A stretch of DNA of 64,000 nt from the NCBI GenBank assembly GCA_009694185.1, contig SHVR01000007.1, forward strand, positions 1 to 64,000, written 5' to 3'. Below are positions 14,743-56,883 of this stretch, one piece after another (the stretch's first letter is position 1; each line of letters begins with the position of its first letter). The notes under the pieces were generated by a model. It did no database searches. It saw only the letters and a list, made by a program, of their open reading frames with translations, and had not been told where the DNA came from. The translations under genes were made by a program, and so were the position numbers. The DNA comes from Alphaproteobacteria bacterium. GTDB lineage: Bacteria > Pseudomonadota > Alphaproteobacteria > SHVR01.

Positions 14743-14985
14743 ATGCGGGAGCGCTACGACATACGGGCCTTCTGGGACGAGGAGTCCAAGACCTGGTACA
14801 CGAACGGCGAGGACTTTCCGGGCCTCTGCGTCGAGGCCGCGACCTTCGAGGAATTGGTCCAGCTCGTGTTCGACCTCATTCCCGAACTCGTCGCGGCCGG
14901 TGCCCCGGTTAACCCCGGCACGATGGTCGACATTCCGATCACCGTCACGGCTGAGCGTCACGGCGTCGCGCACCTTGTTGCCTGA
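14743..14985 (+). CDS. DUF1902/HicB-like antitoxin, 80 aa
   Basis: Small acidic protein of the DUF1902 (HicB-like) family: YDIRAFWDEESKTWYT, then FPGLCVEAATFEELVQLVFDLIPEL. This is the partial RNase H-like fold used by HicB antitoxins, here without the C-terminal DNA-binding domain. The start is the ATG with a GGGAGG site 9 bases upstream; an in-frame TTG two codons earlier is less likely. It precedes and overlaps the HicA-like toxin gene, so it should act as its antitoxin. Confidence 0.8.
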   Translation: MRERYDIRAFWDEESKTWYTNGEDFPGLCVEAATFEELVQLVFDLIPELVAAGAPVNPGTMVDIPITVTAERHGVAHLVA

Positions 14986-15179
14986 TGGCGACCCTCTATC
15001 GGCAGCTCGCCGAGCTGCTGCGCGACGCGGGTTGCGTCTTCGTCCGTCAGGGAAAGGGCAGCCACGAGGTTTGGCATAGCCCGATCACCAGACGGCCGGT
15101 CACTCTCCCATCGAACATTACGAGCCGACATCTTGCCAACGCCATCCTCAAGCAGGCTGGCGTTGACAAGCGAGTTTGA
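14985..15179 (+). CDS. HicA-like mRNA interferase toxin, 64 aa
   Basis: Matches the HicA toxin fold (double-stranded RNA-binding type): LAELLRDAGCVFVRQGKGSHEVWHSP with the catalytic His27 in GSHEVW, then PVTLPSNITSRHLANAILKQAG. HicA toxins cleave mRNA during translation. Its ATG shares one base with the antitoxin's TGA (TGATG), which implies coupled translation. The gene order antitoxin-toxin is the reverse of classical hicAB but usual for DUF1902 pairs. Confidence 0.85.
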   Translation: MATLYRQLAELLRDAGCVFVRQGKGSHEVWHSPITRRPVTLPSNITSRHLANAILKQAGVDKRV

Positions 15180-16430: not shown

Positions 16431-17768
16431 ATGAGCGGAAACCATTTGGATTTTCTCACGGACCTGATCGCCAAGGCGCGTGCCGCCGGCGCCGATGCGG
16501 CCGATGCGCTCTATGTGGAGAGCCGGTCGCTTTCGGTCGCCCAGCGCCTCGGCAAGCTCGAACGCCTGGAGCGGGCCGAGGGCGCCGATCTGGGCTTGCG
16601 GGTGTTCGTCGGCCGGCGGAGCGCTATCGTCTCCAGTACCGACCGGAGCGCGCGCGCCGTGGCGGACCTGGTCGGCCGCGCCATCGCCATGGCGAGCGTG
16701 GCGCCGGAGGACCCGTTCGCCGGCCTGGCCGAGCCGGGCGCCGTGGCTCGAACGATTCCCGCGCTCGACATGTGCGATCCGGATGAGCCCGTGGTCGAGA
16801 CGCTGACCGAGCGGGCTCGCGTGGCCGAGGATGCGGCACTCGCGGTGTCGGGTGTGACGAATTCCGAGGGCGGCGAGGCAAGCTGGGGTCTCAGCGACAT
16901 ACATCTGGTGGCGAGCAACGGCTTCCAGGGCAGCTATCGGCGTTCGAACCATTCGGTGAGCGCCTCCGCCTTGGCCGGCACCGGCACGGGCATGGAGCGG
17001 GACTACGATTATTCGAGCACCGTCCACGGCGCCGACCTGGGCGATGCGGCCGCGATCGGCCGGAACGCGGGCGAGCGGGCGGTGCGCCGTCTCAACCCTC
17101 GCAAGGCCCTGACGGCGAAGCTGCCGGTCGTCTATGAACAGCGCCTGGCGGGCGGCCTGATCCGCAACCTGGCGGGCGCCATCAATGGGGCGGCGATCGC
17201 GCGCGGCACCAGCTTCCTCAAGGACAAGCTGGGCACGCGAATTCTGCCGGTGGGTGTCACCGTCATCGACGATCCGCTGCGCGCGCGCGGCCTGGCGTCG
17301 AAGCCTTTCGACGGCGAGGGCTTGGCGACCCAACGGCGCCATGTCGTGGAGGATGGCGTTCTCACCACCTGGTTCCTCGACTTGCGTTCGGCCCGCCAGC
17401 TCGGCCTCGCCAGCACGGCGCATGCTTCTCGGGGCACCGCCTCGCCGCCATCGCCAAGCTCGACCAACCTCTATCTGGCACCGGGCGGCCAGAGCCCCGA
17501 GGCGCTCATCGGTGCCATCGAGCAAGGCTTGTTCGTGACCGAACTGATGGGCATGGGCGTCAACCAGATCACCGGCGATTACAGCCAGGGTGCCGCCGGT
17601 TTCTGGATCGAGGGGGGCCGGATCGCCTATCCGGTCAGTGAAGTGACCGTGGCCGGCAACCTTGCCGACATGTTCCTGGCGCTGGCCGCGGCCGACGATC
17701 TGGTGTTTCGCGCGGGCGTCAACGCACCCACGCTGCGCATCGACGGCATGACGGTGGCGGGCCGCTAG
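16431..17768 (+). CDS. pmbA: PmbA/TldE metalloprotease subunit, 445 aa
   Basis: TldE/PmbA family. With TldD it forms a protease that degrades unfolded peptides and matures some modified peptides (microcin B17 and CcdA in E. coli). Diagnostic stretches include SRSLSVAQRLGKLERLERAEG, GLRVFVGRRSA, a central SSTVHGADLGD, and the C-terminal TGDYSQGAAGFWIEGG (near residue 383) plus NAPTLRIDGMTVAG. PmbA subunits lack the HExxxH zinc site of TldD, and none is seen here. tldD is not in the window. The start has a GGGAG site. The stop overlaps the convergent fur stop in a shared CTAG. Confidence 0.9.
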   Translation: MSGNHLDFLTDLIAKARAAGADAADALYVESRSLSVAQRLGKLERLERAEGADLGLRVFVGRRSAIVSSTDRSARAVADLVGRAIAMASVAPEDPFAGLAEPGAVARTIPALDMCDPDEPVVETLTERARVAEDAALAVSGVTNSEGGEASWGLSDIHLVASNGFQGSYRRSNHSVSASALAGTGTGMERDYDYSSTVHGADLGDAAAIGRNAGERAVRRLNPRKALTAKLPVVYEQRLAGGLIRNLAGAINGAAIARGTSFLKDKLGTRILPVGVTVIDDPLRARGLASKPFDGEGLATQRRHVVEDGVLTTWFLDLRSARQLGLASTAHASRGTASPPSPSSTNLYLAPGGQSPEALIGAIEQGLFVTELMGMGVNQITGDYSQGAAGFWIEGGRIAYPVSEVTVAGNLADMFLALAAADDLVFRAGVNAPTLRIDGMTVAGR

Positions 17769-18214
17769 CCGGTTTTTTTTCGGCCATGGAGTTCCAGCTT
17801 GTAGTCCACCAGCTCATAGCCGAGCGCGGCGGCGATCCGCTCGATCGAGGCTTCGAGCTTGCGGTCCTGAAATTCCTGGACCTCGCCGGTGGCCACGTCG
17901 ATGACATGGTAGTGATGGTCGAGGTTGGTCTCGAAACGGGCGTAGTTGTCGTTGAACTCGTGCCGGCGCACCAGGTTCATGTCGTCGAGGATATTGAGCG
18001 TGCGATACACCGTCGCGATGCTGATGCTGGAATCGAACTCCTTGGCCCGCTGATGCACGGTCTCGACCGAGGGATGGTCGCCCGCCTCGCGCAAGACTTG
18101 CAGGATGATCCGCCTGGGCCCCGTCATCTTGAGGCCGGCGTCGATGCAGCGCCGCTCCAGATCGGCCAGCATCGCCGCCTGTCCCGCCTGGATTGCCCCC
18201 GCCTGGATTACCAT
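17765..18214 (-). CDS. fur: Fur/Mur family metal-responsive repressor, 149 aa
   Basis: Ferric uptake regulator family. The winged-helix part covers residues 20-85 (AGLKMTGPRRIILQVL, SISIATVYRTLNIL); the dimerisation part has the metal-site motif DHHYHVIDVATGEVQEF at 99-115 and ends GYELVDYKLELHG. It lacks the CxxC structural-zinc motifs, as many alphaproteobacterial Fur/Mur proteins do, so it may sense manganese or iron. The start was placed at MVIQAG, with a GGAAGGGA site; an ATG 12 codons upstream (18250) also has a strong GGGGGGAG site and could be the true start. It is divergent from msbA. Confidence 0.88.
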   Translation of the reverse strand: MVIQAGAIQAGQAAMLADLERRCIDAGLKMTGPRRIILQVLREAGDHPSVETVHQRAKEFDSSISIATVYRTLNILDDMNLVRRHEFNDNYARFETNLDHHYHVIDVATGEVQEFQDRKLEASIERIAAALGYELVDYKLELHGRKKTG

Positions 18215-18303
18215 GGTCCCTTCCGCCGGTTTTCCCCTTGCCGCCACCATAGCGCTCCCCCCATATCCGGCACAATCGACGAAAGGCCCCGCCCGCTGCC
18301 ATC

Positions 18304-18373
18304 GCCCGCTCGGCATTGCCCGCTCGGCATTGCCCGCCCGGCATTGCCCGCCCGGCATTGCCCGCCCGGCATT
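18304..18373. repeat. 14-bp minisatellite, five copies
   Basis: Five adjacent 14-bp units, GCCCGCTCGGCATT twice then GCCCGCCCGGCATT three times, fill 18304-18373 with no spacers. The period is not a multiple of three, and the array lies between fur and msbA, outside the coding part of both. Its right end touches the predicted msbA -35 element. Near-identity of units suggests recent slippage. Confidence 0.92.
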
Positions 18374-18401
18374 GGTTGAGCGGGTGCCCGTATGCTATGG
18401 T
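18373..18401 (+). promoter_or_regulatory. Predicted msbA promoter
   Basis: TTGGTT (18373-18378), a 17-bp spacer and TATGGT (18396-18401) give a plausible housekeeping promoter in a GCTATGG context similar to the GCTATAG -10 elements elsewhere in the window. Transcription would begin only a few bases before the msbA ATG at 18411, so the leader would be very short or absent. Confidence 0.4.
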
Positions 18402-18410
18402 CCGGCCCTC

Positions 18411-20234
18411 ATGACCAAGGATCGGAATAGGCCGGCGGTGGCGCCCGGGACTGGCGATGGCGCGAGCTGGCCCCTGGTGCGGCGCCTGCTGGCGGGCTAT
18501 GTGCGCCCGCATGCCGGGCGCATTTGGGGCGCCTCGCTGTGCATGGCGTTTGCCGCCGCCGCGACGGCCGGCAATGCCTGGATGATGCAGCCCGCCCTTG
18601 ACGAGGTCTTCCTCAAACGCGACGCGACGCTGCTCCTCCTGGTGCCCGCGGCCGTGATCGCGCTCGCACTGGTCAAGGGCTTGGCGAGTTATGCCGACGA
18701 GGTGCTGATGACCCATGTCGGCCAGCGCATCGTGGCCGTCATGCAGCAGCGCATGTTTGCCCATTTGATGGGCGCCGATCTTGCCTTTTTCCACGCGAGT
18801 TCGACCGGCACCCTGATCTCGCGTTTCACCAACGACGTGCAGCTACTGCGCGGCGTGCTCGCCCGTACGCTGACCGGAATCGCCAAGGACTCGTTGACCG
18901 TGGCCGGTCTTGTCGGCGTGATGGTCTACCAGGACTGGCGGCTCGCGGCGGTCAGCTTGGTGGTCTTTCCCTTGGCCGTGCTGCCAGTGCTTGGCATCGG
19001 CCGGCGCATGCGTGGGGTCTCAACCGCGACGCAAGATGAAATGGGGAATTTTACCACTTTGCTCGATCAAACCTTCCAGGGTGCCCGCCATGTCAAGGCT
19101 TACGGCATGGAAGGTTACGAGAGCGCGCGCGCCGGCGCCTCAATCGAACGCTTGTTCAAACTCGTCTATCGGGCGGCCAAGGTGCGCGCCGCCATGCGAC
19201 CCATCATGGAGACGCTCGGCGGTATCGCGGTCGCCATCGCGATCCTCTATGGCGGCAGTCAGGTGATCGAGGGCACGACCACGCCGGGCGCTTTTTTCTC
19301 GTTCGTCACCGCGCTGTTGCTGGCCTATCAGCCGGTCAAGAACCTCGCCAACCTCTATGCGAGCTTGCAGGAAGGCTTGGCCGCGGCGGCCCGGGTGTTT
19401 GCCATGCTCGACCTCGAGCCCACGATCCGCGACCTGCCGGGGGTTCCCGATCTGGTTCCCACGCGCGGCGAAATCACCTTCGCCGACGTGGCTTTCACAT
19501 ACGGGGGCGAGCGGCGGGCGCTGGCCGGGGTGACCTTGAGCGTGCCGCCCGGCGGCACGGCGGCGCTGGTCGGCCCGTCGGGGGCCGGCAAGTCGACGAT
19601 CCTCAATCTCATTCCGCGTTTCTATGACGTGGCGGCAGGCCGTGTCGCCATCGATGGGGTGGATGTGCGCGACGTCACGCTGGCCTCGCTGCGGCGCTCG
19701 ATTTCCCTGGTCAGCCAGGAGACGAGCCTCTTCGACGATTCGGTCGCCGCCAATATCGCCTATGGCCGCCCCGACGCCAGCGAGCGGGAGATCATCCAGG
19801 CGGCGCGAGACGCGGCGGCGCATGATTTCATCATCGGCCTGCCGCGGGGCTATGACACCGAGGTAGGCGAGCATGGCGTGCGGCTCTCGGGCGGCCAGCG
19901 GCAGCGCATCGCCATTGCCCGCGCCATGCTGAAGAATGCGCCGATCCTCCTCCTCGACGAGGCGACCTCGGCGCTCGACAATGAATCCGAGCGGCAGGTT
20001 CAGGTGGCGCTCCAGCGCTTGATGGTGGGGCGAACGACGCTCATCATCGCCCATCGCTTGTCCACGATCCGGAATGCGGACGTGATCTATGTGGTCGAGG
20101 ATGGGCGGGTTGTCGAATCGGGCAGCCACGGGGCGCTCCTCCAGCGTGGCGGTCCTTATGCGCGCCTGCATGCCGTCGAGGCACGGGGCGAGCCGGCCGC
20201 CGACGCGGGCGAGGCCATGAGGGTGCGGGCATAA
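18411..20234 (+). CDS. msbA: MsbA-type lipid A/lipid ABC exporter, 607 aa
   Basis: Half-transporter with the membrane domain first and the ATPase second. Six membrane helices fill about residues 30-320. The ATPase has Walker A GPSGAGKST (388-396), signature LSGGQ (492-496), Walker B ILLLDEATS (512-520) and H-loop His548, so it should be active as a homodimer. MsbA flips core-lipid A from the inner to the outer leaflet of the inner membrane. Assignment rests on fold and on the genes that follow, which make or modify Kdo-lipid A. The start is the first ATG after a promoter-like sequence; the frame also reads through the minisatellite, but that part is not credible protein. Confidence 0.9.
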   Translation: MTKDRNRPAVAPGTGDGASWPLVRRLLAGYVRPHAGRIWGASLCMAFAAAATAGNAWMMQPALDEVFLKRDATLLLLVPAAVIALALVKGLASYADEVLMTHVGQRIVAVMQQRMFAHLMGADLAFFHASSTGTLISRFTNDVQLLRGVLARTLTGIAKDSLTVAGLVGVMVYQDWRLAAVSLVVFPLAVLPVLGIGRRMRGVSTATQDEMGNFTTLLDQTFQGARHVKAYGMEGYESARAGASIERLFKLVYRAAKVRAAMRPIMETLGGIAVAIAILYGGSQVIEGTTTPGAFFSFVTALLLAYQPVKNLANLYASLQEGLAAAARVFAMLDLEPTIRDLPGVPDLVPTRGEITFADVAFTYGGERRALAGVTLSVPPGGTAALVGPSGAGKSTILNLIPRFYDVAAGRVAIDGVDVRDVTLASLRRSISLVSQETSLFDDSVAANIAYGRPDASEREIIQAARDAAAHDFIIGLPRGYDTEVGEHGVRLSGGQRQRIAIARAMLKNAPILLLDEATSALDNESERQVQVALQRLMVGRTTLIIAHRLSTIRNADVIYVVEDGRVVESGSHGALLQRGGPYARLHAVEARGEPAADAGEAMRVRA

Positions 20235-22282: not shown

Positions 22283-23261
22283 ATTCTGGACCAGCGGGCG
22301 AGGGCCCGGGCCGGTGCTGCTGGCGCCGGCCGCCCGCTTGGTGGCGGCCTTCGGCCGGGAGCGACGGCGGCTCGCCCGGCCATGGCGGGCGCCGGTGCCG
22401 GTCGTTTGCGTCGGCAATGTGGTGGTGGGTGGCGCCGGCAAGACGCCCATTGCCCTGGCGATCGTGGCGGCCCTTCGGCTCGCCGGCATCAATGCCCATT
22501 GTCTTACCCGGGGCTATGGCGGGCAGGAGCGGGGACCTGTGGCCGTCGATTTGGCGCGGCACGATGCGGCCGGAGTCGGCGACGAGGCGCTGCTGTTGGC
22601 GCGCGCGGGACCCACCTGGGTCGCGCGCGATCGGCGGCGGGCGGCCGAGGCGGCGACGGCGGCCGGCGCCGAGATACTCCTCCTCGATGACGGCTTGCAG
22701 AACCTGGCACTGGTCCATGATCTGGCGCTCTTCGTGATCGACGGCGGCTATGGTTTCGGCAATGGCCTTGTGCTGCCGGCGGGGCCCTTGCGCGAGCCGG
22801 TCGAGGCGGCCCTCGAGCGTTGTCATGCGGTCGTGCTGGTCGGCCGCGATACTTGCGGAGTCCAACCGGCGATCGGCCGGCGCCGACCGCTCTTCCGCGC
22901 CCGCCTGGAGGCGGGACCGGAAGCCGCGCGGCTCGCCGGCGAGCGGGTGTTCGCCTTCGCTGGCATCGGCCGGCCGGAAAAATTCTTCGCGACGGTCGAA
23001 GAGGTGGGCGCCGTCATGGTGGGCGCCAAAACCTTTCCCGACCATCATCCCTATGCGCCCGAGGAAATCATGGCGATCTGCGAGGCGGCCGACCGGGCCA
23101 ATGCCCTGCCGCTCACGACGGCGAAGGATCATGTTCGCCTGCCGGCGTCGGCCCGGGCGATGATCCGAGTGCTCGACGTGCATATTGCCTGGGACGATCC
23201 CAGCACCCTCGACCGCCTGCTTCAGCCCTTGGTGCGGCGCGTCATGGATCGCCGTGGCTGA
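22269..23261 (+). CDS. lpxK: Tetraacyldisaccharide 4'-kinase, 330 aa
   Basis: LpxK phosphorylates the 4' position of the disaccharide lipid A precursor. Family features are MRAPEFWTSG at the N-terminus, the P-loop GNVVVGGAGKTP (49-60), LTRGYGG, DEALLLA and the LLLDDGLQN motif. FPDHHPYAPEE and TTAKDHVRLP in the C-terminal lobe also match. The start lies inside the end of waaA (14-bp overlap), and the next gene's GTG lies inside its last codons. Membrane-associated at the cytoplasmic face. Confidence 0.95.
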   Translation: MRAPEFWTSGRGPGPVLLAPAARLVAAFGRERRRLARPWRAPVPVVCVGNVVVGGAGKTPIALAIVAALRLAGINAHCLTRGYGGQERGPVAVDLARHDAAGVGDEALLLARAGPTWVARDRRRAAEAATAAGAEILLLDDGLQNLALVHDLALFVIDGGYGFGNGLVLPAGPLREPVEAALERCHAVVLVGRDTCGVQPAIGRRRPLFRARLEAGPEAARLAGERVFAFAGIGRPEKFFATVEEVGAVMVGAKTFPDHHPYAPEEIMAICEAADRANALPLTTAKDHVRLPASARAMIRVLDVHIAWDDPSTLDRLLQPLVRRVMDRRG

Positions 23262-54694: not shown

Positions 54695-56446
54695 TTACCG
54701 TCCCGCGCCAGGCCGGCCATTCGCCGCCATCAGCGCGCCGCCCCGGTCCGGTACGGCGTCGAGAGGCGCCGGCTCGATGCCGAGCAGCGGCGCCATGCGG
54801 GCGATGACCTGGTGAATGATTGGCGCCGCCACCCAGCCACCGGTCGCGTAGCCCATGGTTTCCTTGATGCCGTGTGGTTCGTCGACCATGACCAGGACGA
54901 CATAGCGCGGCGCCTGGGCCGGGAAGGCACCGACGAACGACGACAACAGCGCCTTGCGCTTGTAACCGCCATGGGCACCCACCTTCTCGGCGGTGCCGGT
55001 CTTGCCGGCGACGAAATAGCCCGGTACCTCGGCCTTCTTGCCGGTCCCTTGCGTGACGACAAGCCGCATCAGGGTCCGCATCTGCTCCGAGGTCTGGGCC
55101 TTGAGGACTTGCCGGCCAGCCACCGGCCCGTCCGGAGCGCGCTTGAGGAGCGTCGCCGGGCGCAATATGCCGCCATTGACCAGGGCGGCAACACCGTTCG
55201 CCATCTGCAGCGGACTGACCGACAGGCCGTGTCCGAAGGCGATGGTCATGGTGTTGATTTCGCGCCAGGGCGACGGCACCAGCGGCGCGCCCACCTCCGG
55301 CAGCTCGATGCTTGGCGCTTGGAGCATCTGGAAACGCTTGAGAAACGCTTTCTGCCCTTCGGTGCCCACGTCGAGGGCCATGCGCACGGCGCCGATATTG
55401 GAGGAATAGACGATGATCTCCGGCACCGTGAGCCAGCGATTCTTGCCCTTGTAGTCGCTGATGGTGAAGCGGCCGATCTGGATCGGGCGGCTCGCGTCGT
55501 AACCACGCGACAGCGTCGTGGTTCCGGCATCGAGCGCCATCGCCGCCGTAAACAGCTTGAAGGTCGACCCTTGCTCGTAGACGCCGAGCGTGATGCGATT
55601 GAAGCGGGCCTCCGGCGTTGCCGTCGCGGGTTCGTTCGGTTCGAAGTCGGGCAGCGAGACCAATGCCAGCACCTCGCCGGTCTCGGCGTCCAACACCAGG
55701 CCCGCCGCGCCCTCGGCGCTGAAGCGCCGCTGGGCGGCCAGCAATTCCTCACGCAGAACATGCTGAACACGAATATCAAGCGATAGCTCGACCGGCTCGC
55801 CCTTGGTCTTCAGCCGATCGTCGAGTTTCAACTCGACGCCGCCGAGGCCCTTATTGTCGATATCGGTGAAGCCCACCACATGCGCCGCCAGGCTGCCTTG
55901 CGGATAGACCCGTTGATCCTCGCGGCGGAAATAGAAACCGGGCAGCCCCAGGCGGTTGACCTCATATTGCTGTTGCGGCGTGAGCTTGCGGCGCACCCAG
56001 ATGAAGGTGCGGCCGGATTGCAGGTTGAGGGTGAGCGCTGGGGCGTTGATCTCCGGTAGGACCCGGGCAAGCTTGCGGGCGTCGGCGTCGGCGTCGTCAA
56101 CTTCATGGGGATGGGCATAGAGCGACTGGGTTGCGAGGCTGGTGGCGAGCAAGTGGCCGTTGCGGTCGACGATGGCGGCCCGGTCGACCGCCCTGACAGG
56201 CGCCCCCACGATACGGCTACCGCGCGGCTCGTCGGCCGGCTGCAGGACGACCACCTCGAGAAGCTTGAAGGCGAGCGCCGCAAACGCGATGACGAACAAT
56301 GCCACGCCAAGCACGACGCGATTGTGGGCCACTTCCAACGCTTGATTGTTGCGACGCGGTGGCTCCACCCGACCCGGGGCCGCGGGATGCAGCACCGTCG
56401 GCAAGGGTGACCGTTGCGGCTTGTCCTTGCGGCGCAGGCGGATCAT
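54695..56446 (-). CDS. ftsI: Septal peptidoglycan transpeptidase FtsI (PBP3), 583 aa
   Basis: Class B penicillin-binding protein, the septal transpeptidase. Active-site motifs are in order: STFK at 294-297 (nucleophile Ser294), SSN at 348-350 and KTGT at 482-485. One N-terminal membrane helix (about 43-68) follows a basic, Pro-rich cytoplasmic tail. The pedestal domain shows RAAIVDRNGHLLATS. It overlaps ftsL by 4 bp (ATGA) and is followed by murE after 4 bp. Confidence 0.96.
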   Translation of the reverse strand: MIRLRRKDKPQRSPLPTVLHPAAPGRVEPPRRNNQALEVAHNRVVLGVALFVIAFAALAFKLLEVVVLQPADEPRGSRIVGAPVRAVDRAAIVDRNGHLLATSLATQSLYAHPHEVDDADADARKLARVLPEINAPALTLNLQSGRTFIWVRRKLTPQQQYEVNRLGLPGFYFRREDQRVYPQGSLAAHVVGFTDIDNKGLGGVELKLDDRLKTKGEPVELSLDIRVQHVLREELLAAQRRFSAEGAAGLVLDAETGEVLALVSLPDFEPNEPATATPEARFNRITLGVYEQGSTFKLFTAAMALDAGTTTLSRGYDASRPIQIGRFTISDYKGKNRWLTVPEIIVYSSNIGAVRMALDVGTEGQKAFLKRFQMLQAPSIELPEVGAPLVPSPWREINTMTIAFGHGLSVSPLQMANGVAALVNGGILRPATLLKRAPDGPVAGRQVLKAQTSEQMRTLMRLVVTQGTGKKAEVPGYFVAGKTGTAEKVGAHGGYKRKALLSSFVGAFPAQAPRYVVLVMVDEPHGIKETMGYATGGWVAAPIIHQVIARMAPLLGIEPAPLDAVPDRGGALMAANGRPGAGR

Positions 56447-56883
56447 CGCACCGCCTGCCCCCGGGGCGGGGCCCGGGTGTAGGTGAGCGGCGGACTATCG
56501 TTGGGCGCGGTCGCGCCCGGCGGGAGGGCCTTGAGCGCGGTCGCGCCCGGCGGGAGGGCCTTGGCGGCGGGCGTGGGCGGCAACTCCGGCGCCGCCTGAT
56601 AGGCCCCCAAGCGCGCCGGCAGGTCGTCCGGTTTGATCATGCGGCCGGACTCGACCGGCACCAGGTGCAGATGGCGCGCATTCAGCGCCTGGATGCGGAC
56701 CGGCTGGGTCAAATAGGCCCATTCGGCCGTCAACACATGAATGGCGGCTTGGTCGGTGAGGATCGCCTGGCGGAGACGCCGGAGCTCGCGCTCGCGCTCT
56801 TCGGTCTGGTAGGCGATGCCGAACATGGCGGCCACGATCATGGCGGCGGCGACCAGCCAAAAGACGGTCATGCCGCGGATCAT
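56443..56883 (-). CDS. ftsL: Cell division protein FtsL, 146 aa
   Basis: Short bitopic protein of the FtsQLB complex. One membrane helix (TVFWLVAAAMIVAAMFGIAY, about residues 5-24) is followed by a coiled-coil (EERERELRRLRQAI, residues 27-65) and the conserved tail start AEWAYLTQPVRIQALNARHL. The C-terminal third is Pro/Ala-rich and contains a tandem KALPPGATA duplication. The start MIRGMTV overlaps the rsmH stop (ATGA). Position between rsmH and ftsI makes the identification firm despite low family conservation. Confidence 0.9.
   Translation of the reverse strand: MIRGMTVFWLVAAAMIVAAMFGIAYQTEERERELRRLRQAILTDQAAIHVLTAEWAYLTQPVRIQALNARHLHLVPVESGRMIKPDDLPARLGAYQAAPELPPTPAAKALPPGATALKALPPGATAPNDSPPLTYTRAPPRGQAVR
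56505..56564. repeat. 30-bp tandem duplication in the ftsL 3' end
   Basis: Two adjacent 30-bp units starting GCGCGGTCGCGCCCGG (56505 and 56535) are identical except for the last base. In frame they encode two copies of KALPPGATAL-like residues in the disordered FtsL tail. Confidence 0.92.

Follow-up and report, generated by a model that had tools for sequence, protein, structure and literature searches.

Bacterial intergenic minisatellites, tandem repeats with a unit of about 10–60 bp, and VNTR loci consist of short units in few copies, with variant units at one end. Tandem repeats close to promoters have been described in two systems that are closest to the case considered here. Repeats in the promoters of dop, lpdA and cysG of Mycobacterium tuberculosis vary at rates of 10^-2 to 10^-3 per chromosome, and two of them lie just upstream of leaderless promoters, as reported in PMC12817950. 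For hmw1A of Haemophilus influenzae, which carries heptanucleotide repeats in its promoter region, more repeat copies are reported to go along with lower expression (PMC8262952).

The locus described here is an array of 14-bp units between divergent genes for a Fur-family regulator and an MsbA-type lipid A exporter (fur and msbA in the following), found in a window of 64,000 nucleotides, by which we mean the whole stretch of DNA that was analysed. Like the M. tuberculosis repeats it is built head-to-tail and lies close upstream of a promoter, albeit a putative one, and the msbA leader may be a few bases long, recalling the leaderless promoters of lpdA and cysG. It differs in that the M. tuberculosis repeats, as far as described in PMC12817950, hold promoter sequence themselves (57 bp for dop), whereas the unit of the array is 14 bp long with only the TTG of one hexamer inside; those repeats also vary between isolates and within populations, whereas the fur–msbA array is known from one genome. 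With hmw1A the array shares the promoter-region setting and a period that is not divisible by three, but the account of hmw1A gives 20–24 copies in the tested strains, against 5.4 in the array, and places the repeats between P2 and P1, two predicted promoters of the same gene, not between divergent genes (PMC8262952). In unit length, copy number and variant end the array is like other bacterial intergenic minisatellites and VNTR loci; nothing found sets it apart, and it is an intergenic minisatellite, a member of an already known class. The locus itself was not met in the published literature, with queries that were not aimed at fur–msbA spacers as such, and the phrase “msbA promoter” occurred in none among the matches listed.

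The tandem array in the fur–msbA spacer

The features of the locus are as follows.

17765–18214, minus strand: Fur-family regulator (PF01475, 118.5 bits)
18246–18275, minus strand: putative fur core promoter, TTGTGC-18-TATGGT (two-block model score 6.52)
18287–18299, no strand: degenerate 13-bp pre-unit on the fur side of the array (direct reading; TRF rows start at 18290 and 18291)
18300–18374, no strand: 14-bp tandem array, unit CATTGCCCGCCCGG (direct reading, TRF, shuffle control)
18300 (start): unit 1, CATCGCCCGCTCGG (direct reading)
18314 (start): unit 2, CATTGCCCGCTCGG (direct reading)
18328, 18342 and 18356 (starts): units 3–5, identical, CATTGCCCGCCCGG (direct reading)
18370–18374: partial sixth unit, CATTG (direct reading)
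18372–18400, plus strand: putative msbA core promoter, TTGGTT-17-CTATGG (direct reading; weak, score near random)
18411–20234, plus strand: MsbA-type lipid A ABC exporter (PF00664 and PF00005; TIGR02203)

The spacer measures 196 bp at 70% GC, and the array inside it comprises five units plus five bases at 75% GC. An earlier note on this DNA had placed five near-identical 14-bp units at 18304–18410, between fur and msbA. Direct reading, TRF and the shuffle control bear out the units, and the protein matches on opposite strands bear out the divergent setting, while the range has to be redrawn: the array ends at 18374, and a putative promoter and leader occupy the remainder up to 18410. The variant units are the two on the fur side, where CTC replaces CCC in both and the first also has C for T, so that differences from the consensus number two and then one before three identical copies follow on the msbA side. 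This gradient suggests the msbA-side units to be the most recent ones.

TRF assigned the array a score of 129 with the 14-bp unit, at 5.4 copies, and of 133 in a 28-bp reading. These are the two top scores of the window; among 100 dinucleotide-preserving shuffles of it, the top score was 54 in the median and never exceeded 85, its maximum. Near-identical head-to-tail units are thus present well above chance, and they lie outside coding sequence, between the predicted start codons of fur (18214) and msbA (18411). On balance we favour the view that the array is a nearly neutral, short, GC-rich minisatellite that has grown by replication slippage in the fur–msbA spacer, and we would call this probable rather than secure.

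A 463.5-kb sample of the genome (the window and 20 further stretches, about one sixth of the genome) provides a wider frame. Arrays scoring at least 80 in this sample have periods divisible by three, except for the array at 18300–18374 and one at L109:7772–7840. The latter has a TRF period of 23, a printed consensus of 24 letters and 2.9 copies. It sits in a called intergenic gap between two genes, and intergenic arrays are therefore not confined to msbA in the sampled sixth.

Elsewhere in the window, a 30-bp repeat in 2.1 copies (56501–56563) encodes a repeated ALPPGATA motif at the C-terminal end of the minus-strand ORF 56443–56883. This ORF, which has no Pfam match, appears FtsL-like and lies ahead of an apparently FtsI-like gene.

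Gene neighbourhood

The Fur-family gene is one of two in the draft genome, and its product stays below the cut-off of all ten NCBIfam models listed. The MsbA-type exporter falls just under the equivalog cut-off of TIGR02203 (585 bits vs 602); genes beside it that code for DUF374, kdotransferase (WaaA-type) and LpxK domains support a function in lipid A export. Beyond fur follows a PmbA-type gene.

This arrangement was compared with 23 related msbA loci (50% identity or more, with roughly 0.6–1.5 kb upstream covered) and with 29 related fur loci including 1.5 kb on either flank. None of the former has a Fur match beside msbA, and in six of them (L011, L013, L016, L023, L028 and L031) PmbA lies upstream of msbA on the same strand. 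No MsbA orthologue was found near fur in the 29 fur loci, one of which (L130) matches the ATPase half of a different ABC protein at 33%. Among the loci examined, the fur–msbA neighbourhood is seen only in the window's genome. A scan of genome contigs, which may omit records belonging to the window's own genome, found no near genome; the MsbA relatives that it returned reach 44% identity at most.

Two further observations concern genes of the surrounding region. ARAGORN calls a tRNA-Ser (CGA) at 22770–22853 on the plus strand, the sole tRNA call of the window, inside the same-strand lpxK (22314–23261); it is perhaps a false positive. On the plus strand at 14743–15179, a gene for a DUF1902 protein is followed, with a one-base overlap, by one for a HicA-family protein, likely a HicB/HicA-type toxin-antitoxin pair judging from this arrangement.

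Reading frames across the array

The earlier note had argued that the array is non-coding as its period is not a multiple of three. The conclusion probably holds, but the argument is weak, since the array interrupts neither the msbA nor the fur frame. It is nevertheless extremely unlikely that the array extends the coding sequence of MsbA or Fur at the N terminus. A simple codon-model gene caller does start msbA at 18105 and drops fur, but such a start would fall inside fur. In 14 of the 23 MsbA relatives the alignment starts at residue 16–19, and in six of the 23 an in-frame stop lies 6–24 codons before the aligned part of msbA, closer than the expected position of the array; in the remaining 17 the frame is open further upstream. 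For Fur, the matches of relatives mostly start at residue 13–19 of the 149-residue protein, and any change by one 14-bp unit would shift the frame. As the gene caller counted the array as coding, the coding and non-coding tallies of motifs given below are approximate.

Predicted promoters and the expected effect of unit number

Because fur and msbA diverge, gene order leads one to expect the msbA promoter in or near the spacer. A plausible candidate combines TTGGTT (18372–18377) as the –35 element with CTATGG (18395–18400), ahead of the ATG at 18411. Transcription from this predicted promoter would give msbA a leader of no more than a few bases. Leaderless mRNAs are known from Sinorhizobium meliloti, for which 171 such starts are reported (PMC3616915). 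The TTG with which the candidate begins also closes the array, and to this extent the earlier statement that the last unit touches the –35 element of the predicted promoter is correct, the partial unit overlapping TTGGTT by three bases. The evidence for the promoter itself is weak: its score is near random and a consensus promoter scan found none.

The score comes from a two-block model built on 222 upstream regions, none longer than 150 bp, from the 463.5-kb sample, with the fur–msbA locus left out, which learned a TTG--17--GCTA-like pattern. At 8.58 the putative msbA promoter is the best-scoring plus-strand site in the spacer, sites inside the array reach 8.3, and the best scores of 300 random 196-bp stretches have a median of 7.98 and a 95th percentile of 11.35. 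The upstream regions are themselves not separated from the random stretches (median best score 7.84 vs 7.98, the random stretches being longer), so that the model neither proves nor excludes an msbA promoter. The pattern TTG-20-CTAT is not enriched upstream of genes (one match, and one on the reverse strand). For fur, an alternative overlapping alignment (GTGCCG, spacer 16) scores 8.41, and both alignments are near or below the random level.

Reading from the sequence, loss of one identical unit leaves 33 bp above the –35 element unchanged before the first single-base difference, and gain of one unit leaves 47 bp unchanged; beyond this stretch only the distance to the fur side shifts, by 14 bp per unit. 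Since the repeat is self-similar, one unit more or less would leave the –35 element and the sequence just above it unaltered, which speaks mildly against the proposal of the earlier note that copy-number change shifts the upstream contacts of the promoter.

The same argument bears on the idea, also raised in that note, of a contingency locus, where slippage alters the number of units and thereby the transcription of msbA (or fur), giving rise to envelope or iron-response variants within a population. The idea draws on the array abutting the putative –35 element, on the three identical units, which fit a recent expansion, and on the precedents of the M. tuberculosis promoter repeats (PMC12817950) and hmw1A (PMC8262952). 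With a core promoter that scores near the random level and that stays constant, together with the next 33–47 bp, when one unit is gained or lost, the locus lends this role no support, and the sequence argument is mildly against it. Moreover msbA is essential and as such an unlikely target for on/off switching. We therefore regard a contingency locus as unlikely, and promoter tuning by the array as possible.

Copies of the unit elsewhere

A search of the draft genome with the 14-mer (at most one mismatch), a check put forward in the earlier note, gave 15 matches, five in the array and ten outside, all of the latter single copies and equal in number to the ten of a reversed control. At this control level a dispersed repeat or regulon is not supported. 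The 17-mer TTGCCCGCYCGGCATTG, which spans the unit, has ten matches with at most two mismatches, five in the array and five outside, against one for its control; this small excess speaks against a total lack of dispersed sites. No second array of the 14-bp unit was found in the draft genome, which, being 77% complete, may lack a further copy. Within the window the unit has 41 matches with up to three mismatches, the array included, and eight of 100 shuffles reach as many.

Beyond this genome, a two-unit pattern (at most three mismatches) occurs in one of 385 genomes of the class, namely the window's own, which is the sole representative of its order in the set, and in none of the other 384. 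It has no exact match in viral contigs, and the spacer (18200–18420) has no match among plasmid records. Upstream of msbA in the 23 related loci, repeats with a TRF score of at least 40 are present in two, with periods of 15 and 12 bp that are unrelated to the array.

The repeat contains the dyads GGCA-T-TGCC and TGCC-N5-GGCA, and the array might accordingly be read as a row of operators bound by a transcription factor. At the unit junctions GGCATTGCC is present in four perfect copies, and the five outside matches of the 17-mer against a single one in the reversed control point the same way. We consider this reading very unlikely all the same, as the 14-mer does not exceed its control and 20 of the 24 copies of GGCANTGCC outside the array in the sample fall in called genes (the array's four copies having been subtracted by hand). 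Short dyads would in any case arise easily in a GC-rich repeat of 14 bp.

Folding and quadruplex potential

No unusual fold was found for 18287–18377 on either strand, as RNA or DNA and with or without quadruplexes (z from –1.26 to +0.51 relative to shuffles). The sole match to a known RNA family in 17700–18700, mir-879 at 17799–17872, reaches 23.2 bits against a gathering score of 90 and is taken as chance.

The G-rich minus strand carries GGG-C-GGG in three of the five units, the two variant units having one triplet only. Paired G-triplets with a short loop recall hCEB1, whose instability in yeast is reported to require two such triplets and a short loop (PMC5491262). A quadruplex formed on this strand during replication or transcription might make the repeat less stable and either impede or assist RNA polymerase at msbA or fur. 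There is a quadruplex motif at 18347–18367 on the minus strand, and the G4Hunter peak of –1.48 is equalled or exceeded by 0.2% of 25-nt windows; this peak starts at 18287, however, on the side of the pre-unit and away from the three identical units, and the 463.5 kb contain 317 regions with a value of at least 1.4. Nor is the motif rare, with 34 occurrences in the sample, nine of them outside called genes (the array's own sits among the 25 counted as coding), and with three in the window compared to a mean of 8.2 in its 50 shuffles. As quadruplex-aware folding brings no gain over shuffles either, we think such a role quite unlikely.

Origin and significance

The nearly neutral minisatellite that we favour would have arisen as follows. 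Replication slippage of the 14-bp unit would build the array in the spacer where, in this lineage, fur precedes msbA. Situated upstream of both divergent genes, it would probably be transcribed into neither mRNA, and its last bases would overlap the probable msbA –35 element, with the promoter meeting the same neighbouring sequence whether four, five or six units are present. As the repeat is self-similar, copy number is expected to be nearly neutral save for the distance between the divergent promoters. The slippage origin and the transcription start sites assumed here are what we infer, as is the near-neutrality, which is argued from the sequence. Against it stands that the array adjoins the very stretch expected, from the divergent orientation of fur, to hold the msbA promoter. 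The three identical units might also be a product of selection, and similar promoter repeats in other bacteria are reported to have a function (PMC12817950, PMC8262952).

A more elaborate scenario would make the array, slippage-prone and quadruplex-capable, the element that sets the spacing between the promoter of the metal regulator and a near-leaderless msbA promoter at a new fur–msbA junction in a sparsely sampled lineage. The number of units would then adjust how lipid A export is coupled to metal status. We regard this scenario as highly improbable. If copy number did tune msbA, a contingency mechanism would act on a core envelope gene instead of a dispensable surface antigen. As the case stands, it is mainly an example of a small repeat that has no evident role and sits in a spacer where two genes are joined in an unusual way.
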